From contig CAJCJA010000037.1 in NCBI GenBank assembly GCA_903970515.1, positions 1 through 64,000 on the forward strand: a DNA stretch of 64,000 nucleotides. The letters are read 5' to 3'. Shown one piece after another: positions 54,748 through 63,761 of the stretch (within the stretch, counting starts at the first letter, position 1; every line of letters starts with the position of its first letter). The position numbers and the translations under genes are program-made. This DNA comes from Candidatus Saccharibacteria bacterium CG_4_10_14_0_2_um_filter_52_9 (GTDB lineage Bacteria; Actinomycetota; Acidimicrobiia; Acidimicrobiales; RAAP-2). The notes beneath the pieces are model-generated. The model ran no database searches. It worked only from the letters and a program-made list of their open reading frames with translations, and was not told where the DNA came from.

Positions 54748-56052
54748 ATGGCGCACAAGAGTTTCGACGTGAGCGGGCACGACGACCGCGAGCTCTCCTC
54801 GCTCATTCATGACGCGATCGAGATCAGTGCACAATGGCGCACGACGATGGATGTGAATGTGCTGGTTGAGGAGAAGTTGCGCGGACTCCCCGACGATGCT
54901 TCTCGAGTTGACGTGGTCGCGATCGGCAAAGCTGCGCGGGAAATGTCACGCGCAGTCGAGATCAGTCTCGGTGCTCGCGTGCACCGACGTTTCATTGTCA
55001 GTAGCGAGGAAAGTGCACGTATCTCGCCTCTCGATCAGGCAGTACGTGCGGGCGAGCATCCGGTGCCCGGGACGGGGAGTGTGCGAGCGGGCGGCGAACT
55101 CGTCTCCTTCCTCGACGCGAACGAGAACTCCGACGGCACCGTCTTCTTGATTTCTGGTGGTGCTTCGAGTCTCTGCGCACTACCGATGGAACCACTCGTG
55201 TTGGCAGATCTTCGCGCGCTTTGGGATGCCGTCGTCGCCGTCGGCGCCGACATCACGACGTACAACAAAATCCGCGCCGCGACGTCGCGCATCGCCGGCG
55301 GTGCCATCCTGCGTCACGTGCGCACGCACTGGTCCCAGGGACTCATCATGGTGGACAACGTCGGTGCCGGCGCTCCGTGGGTGGGATCGGCAATGACCTA
55401 CGACTACATACCCAATGACGACGAGGTCATGACGCTCATCGCGGCGCTGCGACTCGAGGAGTCTGCGTTGGGTGAGAAATTACTGGCGGCTGCGCAACTT
55501 CGCAGCCGCACGTTGATGGGCGCAGTCCAATTGCGACACGAAAACAAGGTGCTCGCCGATTCGGAACTGTTGCTCCATCACGTCGTCGTGCACGCGCGCC
55601 GCGCCGGCTACGACGTCATCGAGATGGGCTCGCGGGTGCAAGGAGAGGTTGGCCATGTCGCGCACGAGTGGGGCGAAGAGTTGAAGAGCTTTCGCCACGC
55701 CAGCAATCGACTTTGTGTCGTTGGTACGGGTGAAGTCACCGTCGAGGTTCGAGGAACAGGACGGGGTGGACGTTGCCAAGAGCTGGCGTGGAGGATGGCC
55801 GAAGAATTGAGTCACTTCGAGCGCGACGCGGTCTTTGTTGCATCAAGCTCCGACGGTCGCGACTTCATCGAAGGAGTTGGCGGCGCGTGGGTTGATACCG
55901 GTACGCTCACGAGGGCAAAGTCACGAGGTATCGATTGGCACAGCATCGTGAGCGACAACGACAGCTTTCGAGCTCTTGATTCGCTGCATCAACTGTTGCC
56001 GGGCGCGCACACCGGGTGGAACCTTTGCGACATTTATCTGGCGATGTTGTGA
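54748..56052 (+). CDS. Glycerate 2-kinase (GckA/MOFRL family)
   Basis: A 434-residue kinase converting glycerate to 2-phosphoglycerate. Features of the family are VVAIGKAAREM near the N-terminus, FLISGGASSLCALP, YNKIRAATSRIAGGA, GRGGRCQELAWRMAEEL and SSSDGRDFIEGVGGAWVD, with a C-terminal MOFRL-type end (HTGWNLCDIYLAML). In several positions it is less conserved than usual (SDGRDFIEG where DGTDGPT is common), so another hydroxy-acid substrate is possible. The gene neighbours a sugar-acid catabolic cluster, where it would feed the product into glycolysis. Confidence 0.8.
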   Translation: MAHKSFDVSGHDDRELSSLIHDAIEISAQWRTTMDVNVLVEEKLRGLPDDASRVDVVAIGKAAREMSRAVEISLGARVHRRFIVSSEESARISPLDQAVRAGEHPVPGTGSVRAGGELVSFLDANENSDGTVFLISGGASSLCALPMEPLVLADLRALWDAVVAVGADITTYNKIRAATSRIAGGAILRHVRTHWSQGLIMVDNVGAGAPWVGSAMTYDYIPNDDEVMTLIAALRLEESALGEKLLAAAQLRSRTLMGAVQLRHENKVLADSELLLHHVVVHARRAGYDVIEMGSRVQGEVGHVAHEWGEELKSFRHASNRLCVVGTGEVTVEVRGTGRGGRCQELAWRMAEELSHFERDAVFVASSSDGRDFIEGVGGAWVDTGTLTRAKSRGIDWHSIVSDNDSFRALDSLHQLLPGAHTGWNLCDIYLAML

Positions 56053-56115: not shown

Positions 56116-56895
56116 TCAGGGTTGATTTTCGCTGAGAGCTTTCTTTCGTCGTAGCCAACCACTCATGATGTGGTCGTGCATGGCGTCAAACGCGCCGTTC
56201 TCATCGTGCGACGAGATCTTCTCAAAAATGTTGAGATGGCCCTCGTGCGACAGGGCGATTTCGGCGCGTCGCATGTGGGGGTTGTAGCGCGCGCTCGCGC
56301 GCGCGTACGGGTGGACGGTCCGGATTATCGAGCGCCCCAATTTGTTGCCAGAGCTTCGAAGGATGACGTCGTGATATTCAATGTCGGCGAGGAGATACTC
56401 GTCGGGTTGATCGAGGAGTGACTCGAGGACGGCGAGCGATTCGCGAAGTTCCTCGAGCTGTTCGTCGTTGATCCTCTGCGCCGTACGTCGTGCCATCAGG
56501 CTTTCCAGTCCCACCCGCACGTCGACCACATCGTCGATAATTTCAAGCTTTTCGTCAAAGCGAATCGCTGCTTCGAGGACAAGCGGGTCGAGAAGGTTCC
56601 ATTGGCTTGTCGGCGCGACGGTGGTGCCCTGTCCCTGGCGGACTCGAATGAGGCCCTTTTCTTCCAGTAATTTCAGCGATTCCCTCACCACCGTGCGGCT
56701 GACACCGAACGCCACGCATAGGTCTGGGTTTGTCGGCAGGGTCGTCCCAGGTGCGAGTTCACCGCCCACGATGTCGTCGATCAACGTCTGAAGTACGGCG
56801 ACGCCCAAACTCGTGGGTCGTGGTGGCGCTGGGTTCGCGACCAATGACGTCAAGCTTGAGGCAATTTTTGGCCGAACATCGCCGATATCTGTCAC
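56116..56895 (-). CDS. GntR family regulator, FadR/FCD subfamily
   Basis: A 259-residue repressor with an N-terminal GntR winged helix (about residues 30-95; PTNPDLCVAFGVSRTVVRES and LKLLEEKGLIRVRQGQGT). The C-terminal FCD ligand domain (about 110-245) has metal-binding residues around EYHDVILRSSGN and HLNIFEKI. FCD regulators often sense sugar acids and their breakdown products. GTG 56895 has GGAGG four bases upstream. It is divergent from the dehydratase-ABC-SDR operon, and an imperfect palindrome lies between them. Confidence 0.92.
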   Translation of the reverse strand: MTDIGDVRPKIASSLTSLVANPAPPRPTSLGVAVLQTLIDDIVGGELAPGTTLPTNPDLCVAFGVSRTVVRESLKLLEEKGLIRVRQGQGTTVAPTSQWNLLDPLVLEAAIRFDEKLEIIDDVVDVRVGLESLMARRTAQRINDEQLEELRESLAVLESLLDQPDEYLLADIEYHDVILRSSGNKLGRSIIRTVHPYARASARYNPHMRRAEIALSHEGHLNIFEKISSHDENGAFDAMHDHIMSGWLRRKKALSENQP

Positions 56896-57102: not shown

Positions 57103-58212
57103 GTGAAAATAACGAACGTTGAGAGTTTCACCGTCCTCGCCCCGGGTGCCAATCCACCCTTCGCGTGGCGACACGGACTGCCCGGGAGCTTCGGTGACAG
57201 CCACGTGGCGGTGCTTCGCATCTCGACTGACGACGGCGTCGAGGGAGTGGCGATTGCGCCCCGTCCGGGCAGTGGCGTCATCGTGGCTGACCTCGTCGAA
57301 CGCGTGTTGCGCGACGAGTTGATTGGTGCGGACCCGTTGCAGCGTGAGTTCCTATGGCATCGGATGTGGGAACTGGATCGCGTGTTGGAGTTCCCTATCA
57401 ACGTTCTGGGCTTAGTCGACACTGCGCTGTGGGACCTCGCGGGAAGACTCTATGGCGCACCGACCTGGGAGGTCCTGGGCGGTCACCGCAGTGAGATCGA
57501 AGCGTACGCCTCGACCACGACGTTTCGCACGCAGGAGGAATTCCTCGACGTGGCGACCCAGTGCCTCGAGTTAGGATTTTCGGCCATCAAACTTCACGCG
57601 TGGGGTGACCCGCGACGCGACGCGACGCTCTGCCTCGCTCTTCGAGATCACGTTGGTCCCGACATTGCACTTATGTACGACGGTTCGGCGGGTTTCGATC
57701 TCGCCGACGCCGTCTACGTGGGTGACGCCCTCTCGGAGGCGAACTACCTCTGGTACGAGGAACCGATCCGCGAATTCAGTATCACCGCGTACAAGTGGCT
57801 CGCCGAGAGAGTGCGCGTACCACTCAACGTCGCCGAGACGTCCGATGGTGCTCACATGAACACGGCCGACTTCATCCAGAGCGGTTGCGCGACGTACGTA
57901 CGTACCAGCACCGAACTGCGCGGTGGCTTCACGGGAGCGATGCGAATCGCCCACCTCGCGGATTCATTTCGACTCCGAGCCGAACCGCACGGCAACACGA
58001 TCTACGCTCGCCATCTTTGCATGGCGATATCGAACTGCACGTACTACGAGTCCTTGGTGACTTCCAATCCAGTACGGCGCGAAGACGGCATTAACGCACG
58101 AGGCATCGTTGCGGCGCCACCAGGTCCAGGAGTCGGCTTACCGATGGGTCCCCACTATCCGGCCGAACTGGAACCGTACGTCGTCGACCTTTCGTCGACG
58201 ATCGTGCCGTAG
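57103..58212 (+). CDS. Enolase-superfamily (mandelate racemase/muconate lactonizing) protein, probable sugar-acid dehydratase
   Basis: A 369-residue protein with the N-terminal capping domain and C-terminal barrel of the family. Predicted metal ligands are Asp193 (MYDGSAGF), Glu219 (WYEEPIREF) and Glu245 (NVAETSDG). The base motif is Lys163-Leu-His165 instead of KxK, and His296 (AEPHGNTI) is present. However, the Asp that normally pairs with it in the DxxxxGG strand is replaced (RTSTELRGG). The chemistry is therefore uncertain. It leads the operon with a sugar ABC importer and SDR; GTG 57103 follows GGGGGGA. Confidence 0.85.
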   Translation: MKITNVESFTVLAPGANPPFAWRHGLPGSFGDSHVAVLRISTDDGVEGVAIAPRPGSGVIVADLVERVLRDELIGADPLQREFLWHRMWELDRVLEFPINVLGLVDTALWDLAGRLYGAPTWEVLGGHRSEIEAYASTTTFRTQEEFLDVATQCLELGFSAIKLHAWGDPRRDATLCLALRDHVGPDIALMYDGSAGFDLADAVYVGDALSEANYLWYEEPIREFSITAYKWLAERVRVPLNVAETSDGAHMNTADFIQSGCATYVRTSTELRGGFTGAMRIAHLADSFRLRAEPHGNTIYARHLCMAISNCTYYESLVTSNPVRREDGINARGIVAAPPGPGVGLPMGPHYPAELEPYVVDLSSTIVP

Positions 58213-58290: not shown

Positions 58291-59637
58291 ATGAGTTCAC
58301 CGATGAGAAGTAAAGAATGGCGCAGGGGGCTTCGTCCGAAGTTGCGATCCTCGGTGTTGGCGATTGTCGCCTCCGCCTTGGGCGTCGCGACATTCGGCGT
58401 CGCGACCAGCGCTTCAGCGGCTGCAGCGAAGAAGCCAACGATCACTATCTGGGTTGACTCGACTCGCGAGCCGCAGGTTAAGGCGTACGAGAAGGCTCAC
58501 CCCGGCGTGAAGATTGACCTCGTCGTCTACAACGGTAATGCCAATGGATCAGGTGTTTTGCAGTCAAAGATTGCGCTGGACAATCGGGTGGGCAGCGGTT
58601 GGCCCGACATTGTCTTCAGTGAAGAGAACAATGACGCCGCCTCCTTGGCGAGTTCACAGTTCCATTATCCAGCGGCGTTGAACAACGGCACCGTGCCCAG
58701 CAAGGTCCTTGGCGGCTACGCCGCGGGCTCGCTCGCTGGTTGCACGGTGAACGGCAAAGTGTATTGCCTCCGCAACGACTTGGCAATGAATCTGCTGTTC
58801 TACAACAGTGCGTTGATGACCCAGTTTGGCTACACGGTACCGACCACGTGGCAGGGCTGGGCCGCAATTGGTGCAGAGGTTGCGACCCAACACCCCGGCT
58901 ACATCGTGGGAAGCGTGGGCGACAACTGGGACGACGACATCTACCTCTGGCCGAGTGAGTGCCACGTAGACGACGTGATCAAGACCGACACGATCGTGAT
59001 CAATGGCGCGGACCCGAACTGCACCCGCGCGACGCAATTGATTGACCCACTGGTGAAGGCCGGCTCGGTCACCACCGACAGCGTCTTCTCGTCGACGTTC
59101 GGCACGACGTTCAAGGACAAGATCCTCATGATGGTGGGCCCGGCGTGGTACGGCCAGTACCTCTTCCCGGGCCTCCAGGCGAATGGTGACCTCGCGGTCG
59201 CGGACCCCTTGAGTTGGGGAAGCGGTCCAACGGTGACCGGTGAAGTGGGCGGTGGACTCTGGTTCATGTCCTCTCACGTCTCGGGTGCCACGAAGGCACT
59301 GACGGCATCGATCTTGACGTGGCTGTCGACGTCGTACGGAAGCCAGGGAATCTCACCTGGATATCCCGCGTACGTTGCGGACGAAACGGCGTGGATCGCT
59401 GGACAGCAGGCGTCCGGTCTGTATTCGAACCAGATTGCACCGGTGTTCGCCAAGGCGGCAACCGAAGTGTGGTCGGGATGGTCGCCCGTGCCGTGGAGCA
59501 CTGACTCTGTCTTTGGCAGCACGGTCGTGACCGGGATCAACTCGGGACAGACGCTGACCTCTCAGCTTGCCGGCTTCGCATCGCAATTGGCGGACTACGC
59601 CCAGAGCGATGGTTACACCGTCGTCACAACTCCGTAG
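58291..59637 (+). CDS. Sugar ABC transporter substrate-binding protein (family 1)
   Basis: A 448-residue extracellular solute-binding protein. The signal peptide spans about residues 1-45 (RRGLRPKLRSSVLAIVASAL then ASASA). Unlike most actinobacterial homologs it has no lipobox Cys after the hydrophobic core, so it appears to be released or retained without lipidation. The mature part starts ITIWVDSTREPQVKAYEKAH and has WPDIVFSEENND and LRNDLAMNLLFYN, the usual order for this family. It contains paired Cys (GCTVNGKVYC and ECHVDD/NC). First of a four-gene ABC importer. Confidence 0.9.
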   Translation: MSSPMRSKEWRRGLRPKLRSSVLAIVASALGVATFGVATSASAAAAKKPTITIWVDSTREPQVKAYEKAHPGVKIDLVVYNGNANGSGVLQSKIALDNRVGSGWPDIVFSEENNDAASLASSQFHYPAALNNGTVPSKVLGGYAAGSLAGCTVNGKVYCLRNDLAMNLLFYNSALMTQFGYTVPTTWQGWAAIGAEVATQHPGYIVGSVGDNWDDDIYLWPSECHVDDVIKTDTIVINGADPNCTRATQLIDPLVKAGSVTTDSVFSSTFGTTFKDKILMMVGPAWYGQYLFPGLQANGDLAVADPLSWGSGPTVTGEVGGGLWFMSSHVSGATKALTASILTWLSTSYGSQGISPGYPAYVADETAWIAGQQASGLYSNQIAPVFAKAATEVWSGWSPVPWSTDSVFGSTVVTGINSGQTLTSQLAGFASQLADYAQSDGYTVVTTP

Positions 59638-59652
59638 TAGTAGGAAGATTCA

Positions 59653-60588
59653 ATGAAATCGGTCGTGTCTACTGACGCCCAATCCCCTCAGGGCACGACC
59701 GATTCATTGAGCTCGAAGTTGCGACGTAAGAGGAAGAATGGGGTAGCCGGGTACGCCTTCGTATCCGGCTACTTCATTCTGCTCGCACTCTTCGGCGTCG
59801 CTCCCGCGGTGTACGCGATTTGCCTGGCGTTCACCTCAACGGGTGGTCACTTCGTCGGACTGTCCAACTTCATCAAGACCGGAGAGGACTTCCGCTTCAT
59901 TCCCGCGTTCGAGAACGTGGCCGAGTACCTGCTCATATGGCTGGGCTCACTCGTCGTGATCGTGATCGGGCTGGCACTAATGCTGCACAGCATCGCGAGG
60001 AAGGTCAGTGCAGCATTTCGTTTCGTCTTTTACCTGCCCGGAGCGCTCGCGGGCGCCGCGAGCGTGCTCGTGTGGTTGTTTATGTTGGATCCCACGGTGA
60101 GTCCATGGCGACTCTTCCTTGGCGTCTTCGGATTCCAGAACTTAGGTCAGACGATCCTTCCCGGTCACCTTCCATTGATTTTTGCGATCATCGCGTTTTG
60201 GGCCGGTGCGGGCGGATGGATTGTCGTGACCTATGGCGCTCTCAACAACATTCCTAACGAACTCATCGAAGCGGCCGAACTCGACGGTGCCGGACCTCTA
60301 CAGACGGCGATCCGTATCAAATTGCCACTCATCAAAAAGTGGATCACGTTCATGTTGATCCTCGCCTTTGCCGCTGGGACACAGCTTTTCGTCGAACCTC
60401 AACTTGTCGGTGAAGCGAGTCTCGGGTTGATAAGTCCGACGTGGTCACCCAACGAGTTGGCGTATTATTTCGCGTTTCAAAACAACAATTTCAACTACGC
60501 GGCGGCAATCTCCGTCGATCTATTGGTTATTGGACTTCTTTGTGCGGCCGTACTCGTCTTTCGAACAAAACTCTTCGAGGTGGAATGA
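59653..60588 (+). CDS. Sugar ABC transporter permease (MalF/UgpA type)
   Basis: A 311-residue inner-membrane permease with six helices. The EAA loop that contacts the ATPase reads NELIEAAELDGAGPLQTAIR. The N-terminal 30 residues are cytoplasmic and basic (KLRRKRKNG). ATG 59653 lies 15 bp after the binding-protein stop. Its stop overlaps the second permease start by four bases. Confidence 0.93.
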   Translation: MKSVVSTDAQSPQGTTDSLSSKLRRKRKNGVAGYAFVSGYFILLALFGVAPAVYAICLAFTSTGGHFVGLSNFIKTGEDFRFIPAFENVAEYLLIWLGSLVVIVIGLALMLHSIARKVSAAFRFVFYLPGALAGAASVLVWLFMLDPTVSPWRLFLGVFGFQNLGQTILPGHLPLIFAIIAFWAGAGGWIVVTYGALNNIPNELIEAAELDGAGPLQTAIRIKLPLIKKWITFMLILAFAAGTQLFVEPQLVGEASLGLISPTWSPNELAYYFAFQNNNFNYAAAISVDLLVIGLLCAAVLVFRTKLFEVE

Positions 60589-61466
60589 CGATGCGATTCT
60601 TTAATCGAGTCTGGACTCGAACATTTTCATACATCGTGTTATTGGCCTTCACCGCGTTCTTCATGGTGCCGGTGATTTGGCTGTTGTTCTCCCCTTTCAA
60701 GACCGACCATCAACTGATAAGCGAGAACCCTTTCGCACTGGGTACGTTGGAGAATCTCGGCCACGCGGTGCGCGTGATGTTCACGTTCGAGGATTATTCG
60801 CTGCTCAATTGGCTGAAGAATTCGGCGATCTATTCCTTCGGTGGCATCTTTATCGCACTAATCTTCTCGATTCCCGCGGGATACGGTCTCGCCCACACCC
60901 AGTTCATCGGGCGACGGACCTTGCTCGGCATCACCCTGTTCGTCATGATCATGCCCGCCACGGCACTCGTGCTGCCCTTGTTCCTGGAAGCGAACTCGGT
61001 GCACGCAGTGGGGACACCACTCGCGGTCATCCTTCCGTTTTCGTTCTTCCCGTTCGGGGTCTACCTGGCCTACATTTTCTATTCGTCGTCGGTTCCCAAG
61101 GACTTACTTGCCGCGGCGCGCATTGACGGCTGCAATGAATGGGACGTGTTTCGCCGCATCGCGCTCCCCTTGGCGCGACCGATTGTCGCACTTGTGACAT
61201 TCTTCGCGTTCGTCGCGAACTGGAACAACTTCTTCCTCCCCTTCGTGATGCTGCCGAACAGCACGAATTATCCCCTTCCGATCGGCCTCCAGGACTTGTT
61301 GTCGACGACGCCGGCGTTCAATCCTGGACAAGGCGGACAGGTCGGCATCTACCGCCCCGAGTTGGCTGTTGCCACGATCGTCGCCATGGCGCCCGTCATG
61401 ATCGTGTTCCTCTTCGCGCAGCGCTCGCTCGTTTCGGGGCTGCTCGCTGGGTCCACGAAGGAATAG
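60585..61466 (+). CDS. Sugar ABC transporter permease (MalG/UgpE type)
   Basis: A 293-residue permease with six helices and the EAA loop KDLLAAARIDGCNEWDVFRR. Typical motifs are VIWLLFSPFKTDHQL near the N-terminus and VANWNNFFLPFVML late. I take ATG 60585, overlapping the stop of the first permease (ATGA); ATG 60591 two codons later is an alternative. Upstream codons in this frame overlap the first permease and are not coding. Confidence 0.92.
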   Translation: MTMRFFNRVWTRTFSYIVLLAFTAFFMVPVIWLLFSPFKTDHQLISENPFALGTLENLGHAVRVMFTFEDYSLLNWLKNSAIYSFGGIFIALIFSIPAGYGLAHTQFIGRRTLLGITLFVMIMPATALVLPLFLEANSVHAVGTPLAVILPFSFFPFGVYLAYIFYSSSVPKDLLAAARIDGCNEWDVFRRIALPLARPIVALVTFFAFVANWNNFFLPFVMLPNSTNYPLPIGLQDLLSTTPAFNPGQGGQVGIYRPELAVATIVAMAPVMIVFLFAQRSLVSGLLAGSTKE

Positions 61467-61573: not shown

Positions 61574-62761
61574 ATGGCTCCCGTCTCTCTTGAGAAGCTG
61601 ACGAAGGTCTACCCGAATGGTTTTGAAGCCGTTCACGAATTTGACCTCGAAGTCGCCGACGGCGAGTTCATGATCCTCGTGGGACCGTCGGGATGTGGAA
61701 AGACGACGGCAATGAGGATGGTGGCGGGACTCGAGGAGATCTCGAGCGGCGTGTTACGTATTGATGGTGTCGTGATGAATGATGTGTCGCCTCGAGATCG
61801 CGACATTGCGATGGTCTTTCAAAATTACGCACTCTATCCGCACATGACCGTTGGCGAGAACATTGGATTCGCCTTGAAGATGAAACACATTCCGAAGGAC
61901 GAGATTGAGAAGAAGGTCCGCGAGACGGCGGAGATCCTTGGACTCACCGAGTGGATCGATCGGAAACCGGCGCAACTCTCGGGGGGTCAGCGCCAGCGAG
62001 TTGCGATGGGACGTGCCATCGTTCGCGAACCGAAAGTGTTCTTGATGGATGAACCACTTTCGAACCTCGACGCGAAGCTTCGAGTGCAAATGCGCGCTGA
62101 AGTTGCGAGGATCCAACGTCGGCTCGGCGTCGCGACGATCTACGTGACCCACGACCAAGTCGAAGCGATGACGATGGGCGACCGGGTCGCCGTGATGCGA
62201 TCGGGGGTCGTGCTCCAGTGCGACAAGCCCCAGACCATCTACGACCATCCACTCAACCTCTTCGTCGCGGGTTTCATGGGATCACCGTCGATGAATTTGT
62301 TCGAGGTCCACCTCGGGGAGGGAGGTCGCACTCTCTTTTTGGGGACTCAAAAGGTGGAACTGCCCGCGACCGTTCTCGCGGCGAAGCCTTCACTGGTGAA
62401 ATTCGCCAACAAGGACGTCGTCGTGGGGATACGGCCGGAGAGTCTCATGATTGCTGGCACCAAGACCAACGACAACGCGAAGGATTTCGTGTTCTTCGAA
62501 GGCGACGTCGATCTCGTCGAAGCGTTGGGTTCAGAGATCCTCGTGCATTTTTCGACTGACGCACACCGAGTGGAGGCGGAGGGTGTGTACAGCGACGACG
62601 CCGAGGGCCTCGACGCGGGATTGATCACCCAACGTGGTGAGGGGGTGGCCCGCGTGCCCCCCGAGACCCAACTGGTCATCGGCGAACGAGTTCGACTCCA
62701 GGTAAATCCCAAGCGGCTGTTTTTCTTTGATCCAGCCACGGGCCTAGCGCTGAGTGAATAA
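61574..62761 (+). CDS. Sugar ABC transporter ATPase (MsmK/UgpC/MalK type)
   Basis: A 395-residue ATPase energising the importer. Walker A GPSGCGKTTAMRMVAGL (about residue 37), Q-loop VFQNYALYPHMTV, signature LSGGQRQRVAMGRAI, and Walker B VFLMDEPLSNLDAKLRVQM are intact. A C-terminal TOBE/MalK-like regulatory region covers about 240-395, with VVGIRPESLM. Such subunits can serve several importers. It follows the second permease after 107 bp; GAAAGGAAG precedes the ATG. Confidence 0.95.
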   Translation: MAPVSLEKLTKVYPNGFEAVHEFDLEVADGEFMILVGPSGCGKTTAMRMVAGLEEISSGVLRIDGVVMNDVSPRDRDIAMVFQNYALYPHMTVGENIGFALKMKHIPKDEIEKKVRETAEILGLTEWIDRKPAQLSGGQRQRVAMGRAIVREPKVFLMDEPLSNLDAKLRVQMRAEVARIQRRLGVATIYVTHDQVEAMTMGDRVAVMRSGVVLQCDKPQTIYDHPLNLFVAGFMGSPSMNLFEVHLGEGGRTLFLGTQKVELPATVLAAKPSLVKFANKDVVVGIRPESLMIAGTKTNDNAKDFVFFEGDVDLVEALGSEILVHFSTDAHRVEAEGVYSDDAEGLDAGLITQRGEGVARVPPETQLVIGERVRLQVNPKRLFFFDPATGLALSE

Positions 62762-62960: not shown

Positions 62961-63761
62961 ATGGCTATGACACAAAGTGATATCGGCGTCAGTGCGAGCA
63001 GTGACGCGAAGGAATTTAGAGGACTGCGAGCGATTGTCACCGGTGGTGCTTCGGGCATCGGACGCGCGGTCGCGGAGCGTCTCCTTCGCGAGGGAGGTCG
63101 TGTCGCGGTACTCGATCTCGACATCTCCGGTGTCGGCACCGAATTCCTCGTCGCTCAGTGCGACGTGTCGGATTCTGAAAGCGTGTCGAACGCGGTGCGC
63201 GGCGTGGTCGAGGAGTATGGGGGAATCGACATCGTCGTCAACAACGCGGGCATTGGCGCACAGGGCACGGTGGAGGAGAACACCGATGACGAGTGGCGCC
63301 GCGTGTTCGAAGTGAACGTCTACGGCGTCGTGCGTGTCACTCGCAGCGCACTTCCGTACCTGCGGCTCTCGAAGCACGCCGCGATCGTCAATACGTGTTC
63401 GGTCGCGGCGGACATTGGACTGCCCCGACGAGCTCTGTACAGTGCGACAAAGGGTGCGGTACTTGCGCTTACTCGAGCAATGGCGGCAGATCACCTTGGC
63501 GAGGGCATACGAGTCAATTGCGTGAATCCCGGCACCGCGGACACCCCGTGGGTGCAACGCCTTTTGGGTCAGGCGGCAGATCCTCAACAAGAGCTCGAAG
63601 CGCTCTCCGCACGTCAGCCCCATCGACGCTTGGTCAGCGCGGACGAAGTTGCGGGTGCGATTGCGTACCTCGCGAGCCCCCTTTCGGGTTCGACGACGGG
63701 CATCGCACTCAATGTCGACGGGGGTCTCGTGGGGCTGCGAATCCCTCAAGGTCCGGCGTAA
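62961..63761 (+). CDS. Short-chain dehydrogenase/reductase
   Basis: A 266-residue classical SDR. The NAD(P) motif is TGGASGIGRA (about 27-35), followed by NNAGIGA, the catalytic Ser147, Tyr160 and Lys164 (LYSATKGAV), and VNCVNPGTADTPW. Asp52/54 after the second strand (VLDLDIS) suggests NAD preference. As last gene of the cluster it may oxidise the imported sugar or a hydroxy acid. ATG 62961, with an in-frame ATG two codons later. Confidence 0.92.
   Translation: MAMTQSDIGVSASSDAKEFRGLRAIVTGGASGIGRAVAERLLREGGRVAVLDLDISGVGTEFLVAQCDVSDSESVSNAVRGVVEEYGGIDIVVNNAGIGAQGTVEENTDDEWRRVFEVNVYGVVRVTRSALPYLRLSKHAAIVNTCSVAADIGLPRRALYSATKGAVLALTRAMAADHLGEGIRVNCVNPGTADTPWVQRLLGQAADPQQELEALSARQPHRRLVSADEVAGAIAYLASPLSGSTTGIALNVDGGLVGLRIPQGPA

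Follow-up and report, generated by a model that had tools for sequence, protein, structure and literature searches.

An enolase gene beside a sugar importer

The window analysed here is a stretch of 64,000 nucleotides, and the gene under study (57103..58212, + strand) begins with GTG and encodes 369 aa of an enolase-superfamily protein. We propose that it is an acid-sugar dehydratase of the mandelate racemase (MR) subgroup, referred to here as KxH-type after its second-strand motif, and putatively a second-lineage L-fuconate dehydratase. Divergent from it lies a regulator of the GntR/FCD family (56116..56895, - strand), which is conserved beside the enolase. The genes that follow, all on the + strand, encode an ABC sugar-binding protein that is a conserved partner (58291..59637), ABC permeases of the MalF type (59653..60588) and the MalG type (60585..61466; the listed ORF opens at 60441, the likely start being near 60585), an ABC ATPase of the UgpC/MalK type (61574..62761) and an SDR dehydrogenase (62961..63761), the proposed 2-keto-3-deoxy-L-fuconate 4-dehydrogenase. 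This SDR is 55-86% identical to the SDRs of other KxH clusters and 57-70% identical to those of clusters encoding the canonical L-fuconate dehydratase, FucD.

Two further features of the neighbourhood were noted. A glycerate 2-kinase gene (DUF4147/MOFRL, 54748-56052) is convergent with the GntR gene and is conserved beside the enolase in only one other locus, L023. Just past the end of the window on the same contig, C37 (L091:980-7551), a second acid-sugar cluster lies directly downstream, comprising an IclR regulator, a zinc alcohol dehydrogenase, an IlvD/EDD-type (L-arabinonate dehydratase-like) dehydratase and a fused FAD/FeS 2-hydroxyacid dehydrogenase.

An altered acid/base residue set

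The enolase matches the Pfam families MR_MLE_C (5e-38) and MR_MLE_N (8e-9), and the best PDB matches of its predicted model (pLDDT 89, pTM 0.87) are all enolase-superfamily barrels (Z 26-32); with both domains and the barrel fold, it belongs to the MR subgroup of the enolase superfamily. The register of the active-site residues was set by alignment to 1RVK, 3OZM and canonical FucD. At the end of the second barrel strand, K163-L164-H165 (57589..57597, in IKLHAWGD) has a His, H165, aligned with the second Lys of the KxK motif. Acidic metal ligands occupy three strands in succession, namely D193 (57679..57681), assigned by analogy with the superfamily, E219 (57757..57759) and E245 (57835..57837), and E316 is also present. 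In R267-T-S269 (57901..57909, in VRTSTELRGG), S269 occupies the position of the dyad Asp, two residues after an invariant Arg, and H296 (57988..57990, in AEPHG) aligns with the dyad His as a barrel His devoid of its Asp partner. In place of KxK on strand 2 and a His-Asp dyad on strands 7/6, the protein therefore has KxH and a retained His whose Asp is replaced. Known subgroups vary at these positions, so the mismatch does not speak against membership of the MR subgroup.

Scanning genome contigs yielded 223 relatives, from which 80 loci (64-91% identity) were analysed. Across 81 sequences, the window protein included, K163, H165, D193, E219, E245 and E316 are invariant, and position 269 is Ser in 50 and Gly in 31, never Asp. 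H296 is kept in 79 of the 81 (the window protein and 78 of the 80 relatives), both exceptions being Leu in Kutzneria copies. The same residue set recurs in 1RVK-type relatives at about 32% identity, and in relatives from Klebsiella and Ensifer. The altered acid/base set is thus a family signature. Unusual residues, taken alone, might have suggested chance divergence or a decaying gene, an explanation to which we give almost no credence: a set that is kept across 81 sequences, with identity as low as 63%, and again in the distant 1RVK-type relatives, is not an effect of sequencing or decay.

The Kutzneria enzymes in which His296 is replaced by Leu (L050:8001-9089 and L052:8001-9101), and whose chemistry has possibly changed, lie alongside a different permease (BPD_transp_2), with a GH95-like gene adjoining the first of them. 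A relative from the order of the window organism (L104:2779-3759, genome G056) has an intermediate residue set, combining KxH (KIHGW) with the dyad Asp (VHTDATYDGGIT), which indicates that KxH and the loss of the Asp are separable changes.

The closest solved structure is that of the enolase AGR_L_2751 of Agrobacterium tumefaciens (1RVK, 4HCD, 4HCH, 4HCL and 4MMW), with 180 bits and a structural match of Z 32.2 and rmsd 3.4 A over 339 residues at 32% identity. This enzyme also has KxH (KLHTW), an Arg at 267 with no dyad Asp (LRTGVNDVGG) and the His motif EVHG (EVHGNT), and the window protein shares the complete pattern of KxH, Arg 267, Gly/Ser at the dyad Asp position and E-x-H-G. The two differ in the loop past the second strand, which is 7 residues longer in 1RVK (KLHTWMPPVSWAPDV versus KLHAWGDP); a Klebsiella relative with the long 1RVK-type loop adjoins an ABC transporter and arabinitol genes, with no fucose cassette. 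L-lyxonate dehydratase reportedly also varies the second KxK residue within an MR-subgroup dehydratase, having KxR, but is said to keep the His-Asp dyad.

An earlier sequence-only reading had recognised the KxH motif, the missing Asp, and the retained metal ligands and His296, all in the correct register. It had further held that known dehydratases of the family keep either KxK or the His-Asp dyad, a rule broken by the closest solved structure, 1RVK/4HCH, which its depositors title D-glucarate dehydratase. Because 1RVK/4HCH carries the same residues, the set alone is no argument for a new reaction. A literature search of incomplete coverage found no paper on KxH motifs or on 1RVK.

KxH enolases among genes of L-fucose breakdown

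Genes of non-phosphorylating L-fucose breakdown are present at 51 of the 80 KxH loci, while the other 29 have no pathway gene within reach. An ABC sugar importer usually follows the enolase (binding protein at 71 loci, permeases at 69), and a GntR/FCD regulator, divergent in some groups, often accompanies it. Among the enzymes of the pathway, an aldo-keto reductase (AKR) is encoded at 44 loci, an SDR at 25, a RhaM-like mutarotase at 24, a COG3618 lactonase at 21 and an FAH hydrolase at 13, with at least three of these five at 21 of the 80. Loci L007 and L023 combine regulator, enolase, importer, mutarotase, SDR, AKR and lactonase, and so contain the pathway in full except for the FAH hydrolase. 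The published pathway runs FucM-FucA-FucB-FucC-FucF-FucG (PMC11199699). Judged by sequence, the genes at KxH loci match it, and the KxH enolase is the only dehydratase there. Clusters of relatives thus fit the expected make-up of mutarotase, dehydrogenase, lactonase, SDR and FAH hydrolase with one dehydratase, and the window genome splits it over two contigs.

The nearest relatives of the individual enzymes were also informative. The lactonase falls with the COG3618 group of 4DLF and with the L-fucono-1,5-lactonase model, the AKR is closest among solved structures to L-galactose dehydrogenases, and the FAH hydrolase is closest to L-2,4-diketo-3-deoxyrhamnonate hydrolase. L-rhamnose was considered as the sugar and rejected: the names of the FAH hydrolase and mutarotase are rhamnose-type, yet the relatives of the lactonase, the AKR and the GH141-like protein point to L-fucose or L-galactose. 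The enolase itself reached only 84.5 bits as an L-rhamnonate dehydratase, for which the cut-off is 393. A GH141-like (fucosidase/fucanase-type) gene is present at 58 of the 80 loci, and its nearest solved relative is BT_1002, a GH141 alpha-L-fucosidase (PMC12786026). As family GH141 contains an alpha-L-fucosidase, endo-fucanases and one xylanase (PMC12786026), this gene beside the KxH enolase is only suggestive.

Could the enzyme instead be an aldarate dehydratase of the D-glucarate type, as the depositors assign 1RVK/4HCH, with its place in fucose clusters reflecting the breakdown of polysaccharides that contain both fucose and uronate? The identical residue set in the closest solved structure speaks for this, R267, which is invariant and sits at the mouth of the barrel, could hold another carboxylate, and a glycerate 2-kinase gene is at hand in the window. 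However, 1RVK is only 32% identical, the glycerate kinase is conserved beside one relative only, and the recurrent neighbour clusters scanned included no uronate dehydrogenase, keto-deoxyglucarate aldolase or KdgD-type gene; we consider this assignment improbable. The gene context points instead to ordinary aldonate dehydration, of L-fuconate, by a variant residue set. Of the sequence-only reading, therefore, the altered and conserved acid/base set stands, its uniqueness among known relatives does not, and the new reaction type it was taken to signal finds no support.

Exclusion from FucD clusters

FucD of Xanthomonas campestris (1YEY, 2HNE, 2HXT and 2HXU) and human ENOSF1 (4A35) share the superfamily and the subgroup fold (2HNE, Z 26.6), and FucD has the same pathway partners as the KxH enolase, namely SDR, FAH hydrolase, lactonase, dehydrogenase and mutarotase. 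However, FucD has 439 aa with both KxK and the Asp-His dyad, whereas the window protein has 369 aa and neither. Against 1YEY, a genuine FucD from the same order reaches 520 bits; the window protein is 28% identical to that FucD, over 166 residues only. By full-length similarity as well as by KxK and the dyad, the window protein falls outside the canonical FucD family (EC 4.2.1.68), and on these sequence grounds we do not regard it as a member. A non-orthologous alternative to FucD at the step proposed here has a precedent in the L-fuconate dehydratase of the UxaA/GarD superfamily from Paraburkholderia mimosarum, although the fold and metal chemistry of that enzyme are unrelated to those of the KxH enolase (PMC6336799).

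We compared the KxH loci with 51 FucD loci, taken from genomes with and without a KxH enolase. The FucD loci contain an SDR in 44 cases, an AKR in 43, a lactonase in 38 and an FAH hydrolase in 13, and a KxH enolase in none; conversely, FucD occurs at one of the 80 KxH loci (L009). In Streptomyces, the cassette at FucD loci is ordered FAH-FucD-SDR-AKR(-lactonase), whereas in several strains RhaM-FAH-SDR-AKR-lactonase lies downstream of the KxH enolase, with FucD gone from the run. When trees were labelled by cluster type, the label changed at least 4 times in the lactonase tree and at least 7 times in the AKR tree, the latter a quick one. The labels thus interleave: upstream enzymes have passed from one cluster type to the other or are common to both, which probably means that the sugar is the same. 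A separate sugar served by separate AKR and lactonase clades finds no support in these trees. The simplest reading of the exclusion between clusters would be one sugar with two kinds of dehydratase.

This exclusion is confined to the clusters. Full-length canonical FucD is encoded elsewhere in 42 of the 46 genomes with a KxH enolase, and among 101 Streptomyces genomes it is present in 12 of 12 with a KxH enolase versus 51 of 89 without (Fisher p 0.002). Replacement of FucD at the level of the genome is thereby rejected, and the KxH enolase usually comes on top of FucD instead of taking its place. It could act at another step or on a related sugar, for instance on an acid such as L-galactonate, or could be an isozyme under different regulation that is tied to import and extracellular defucosylation.

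The option of a related sugar has a specific form, in which the KxH enolase works beside FucD on an L-galacto-configured relative of L-fuconate (L-galactonate, D-arabinonate or an O-methylated fuconate) and feeds a common SDR and FAH hydrolase. Such a division of labour would suit the frequent co-occurrence with FucD, the kinship of the AKR to L-galactose dehydrogenases and the GH95-like gene that adjoins some loci. It fits poorly with the interleaving of AKR and lactonase from both cluster types, and with the reciprocal gene loss in the window genome described below, which leaves a single composite pathway. We hold it to be unlikely. A racemase, an epimerase or another enediolate enzyme acting on an acid of the fucose pathway, which would be a new reaction for this place, is a still more distant prospect. 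With a His on either face of the barrel, a 1,1-proton transfer of the mandelate racemase kind is conceivable, and such an enzyme could coexist with FucD; but it would leave the dehydratase slot empty in the cassettes with a KxH enolase, and the window genome is without an intact FucD.

A putative pathway split over two contigs

The window belongs to a metagenome assembly of 1.97 Mb that is 96% complete. In addition to the window enolase, this genome has just one enolase-fold gene above the Pfam cut-off, a MenC-like one; no intact FucD was found there, and a GH141 search of it gave no match. A second fucose cluster on contig C10 (8939-12478; L102:4940-8479) has intact genes for FAH hydrolase, mutarotase, lactonase and AKR, together with two remnants, the last ~110 aa of FucD (5e-30 to 2HXU, an L-fuconate dehydratase) and the last 43 aa of the SDR. 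Compared with a 96%-identical cluster in the L023 genome, where all six genes are intact, both losses are clean deletions, which may in part be assembly products given that this is a metagenome. The window cluster, compared with locus L023, has kept the enolase and SDR, and lacks the mutarotase, AKR and lactonase. Together the two clusters would make one complete pathway, in which exactly the steps broken on C10 appear to be filled by the KxH enolase and SDR of the window. That reciprocal loss leaves one composite pathway suggests the same sugar for the KxH enolase and FucD.

Proposed function and mechanism

From the residue set and its conservation, the make-up of the clusters, the exclusion from FucD clusters and the truncation of FucD in the window's own genome, we infer a substrate, its stereochemistry and the roles of H165 and H296. 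The window protein is probably a Mg2+-dependent aldonate dehydratase of the MR subgroup that converts L-fuconate to 2-keto-3-deoxy-L-fuconate and belongs to a lineage with no family-level kinship to FucD. Going by the evidence from sequence, the best classification is a variant acid-sugar dehydratase lineage of KxH type, with L-fuconate as the most likely substrate. In many relatives, enzymes of the GH141 or GH95 type would release L-fucose outside the cell; the ABC importer would take it up, the AKR would oxidise it and the COG3618 lactonase would open the lactone to give the aldonate. After dehydration by the KxH enolase, the SDR would oxidise C4 and the FAH-family hydrolase would split the diketo acid into pyruvate and lactate.

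Established work on FucD assigns abstraction of the C2 proton to the second Lys of KxK, and protonation of the leaving 3-OH to the dyad His. H165, at the position of the FucD base, could take over the abstraction, the metal stabilising the enediolate, and H296, free of an Asp, may protonate the leaving 3-OH. R267, which is invariant, and E294 emerge as new candidates for a role in tuning H296 or binding the substrate.

More broadly, the KxH enolases may well be an L-fuconate (or L-galacto-aldonate) dehydratase of separate evolutionary origin, with a His base in place of Lys and an Asp-free His acid, widespread in Actinobacteria and kept over FucD in some soil Acidimicrobiia through reciprocal gene loss. 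If so, the enolase superfamily has arrived at the same reaction two or more times by way of different acid/base residues, and both solutions occur within the same organisms and at times in a single genome. Nature would thereby offer a clean comparison of Lys with His as the base, and of the presence with the absence of an Asp partner, for a single dehydration. Hundreds of actinobacterial proteins named only 'enolase C-terminal domain-like' would gain a function, and fucose-pathway predictions based on FucD alone would be corrected.

A protein of ~793 aa with no Pfam or NCBIfam match is encoded downstream of the importer (L066:11699-14077, with similar genes in 9 loci) in several Streptomyces KxH clusters, where it is often followed by a ROK protein.
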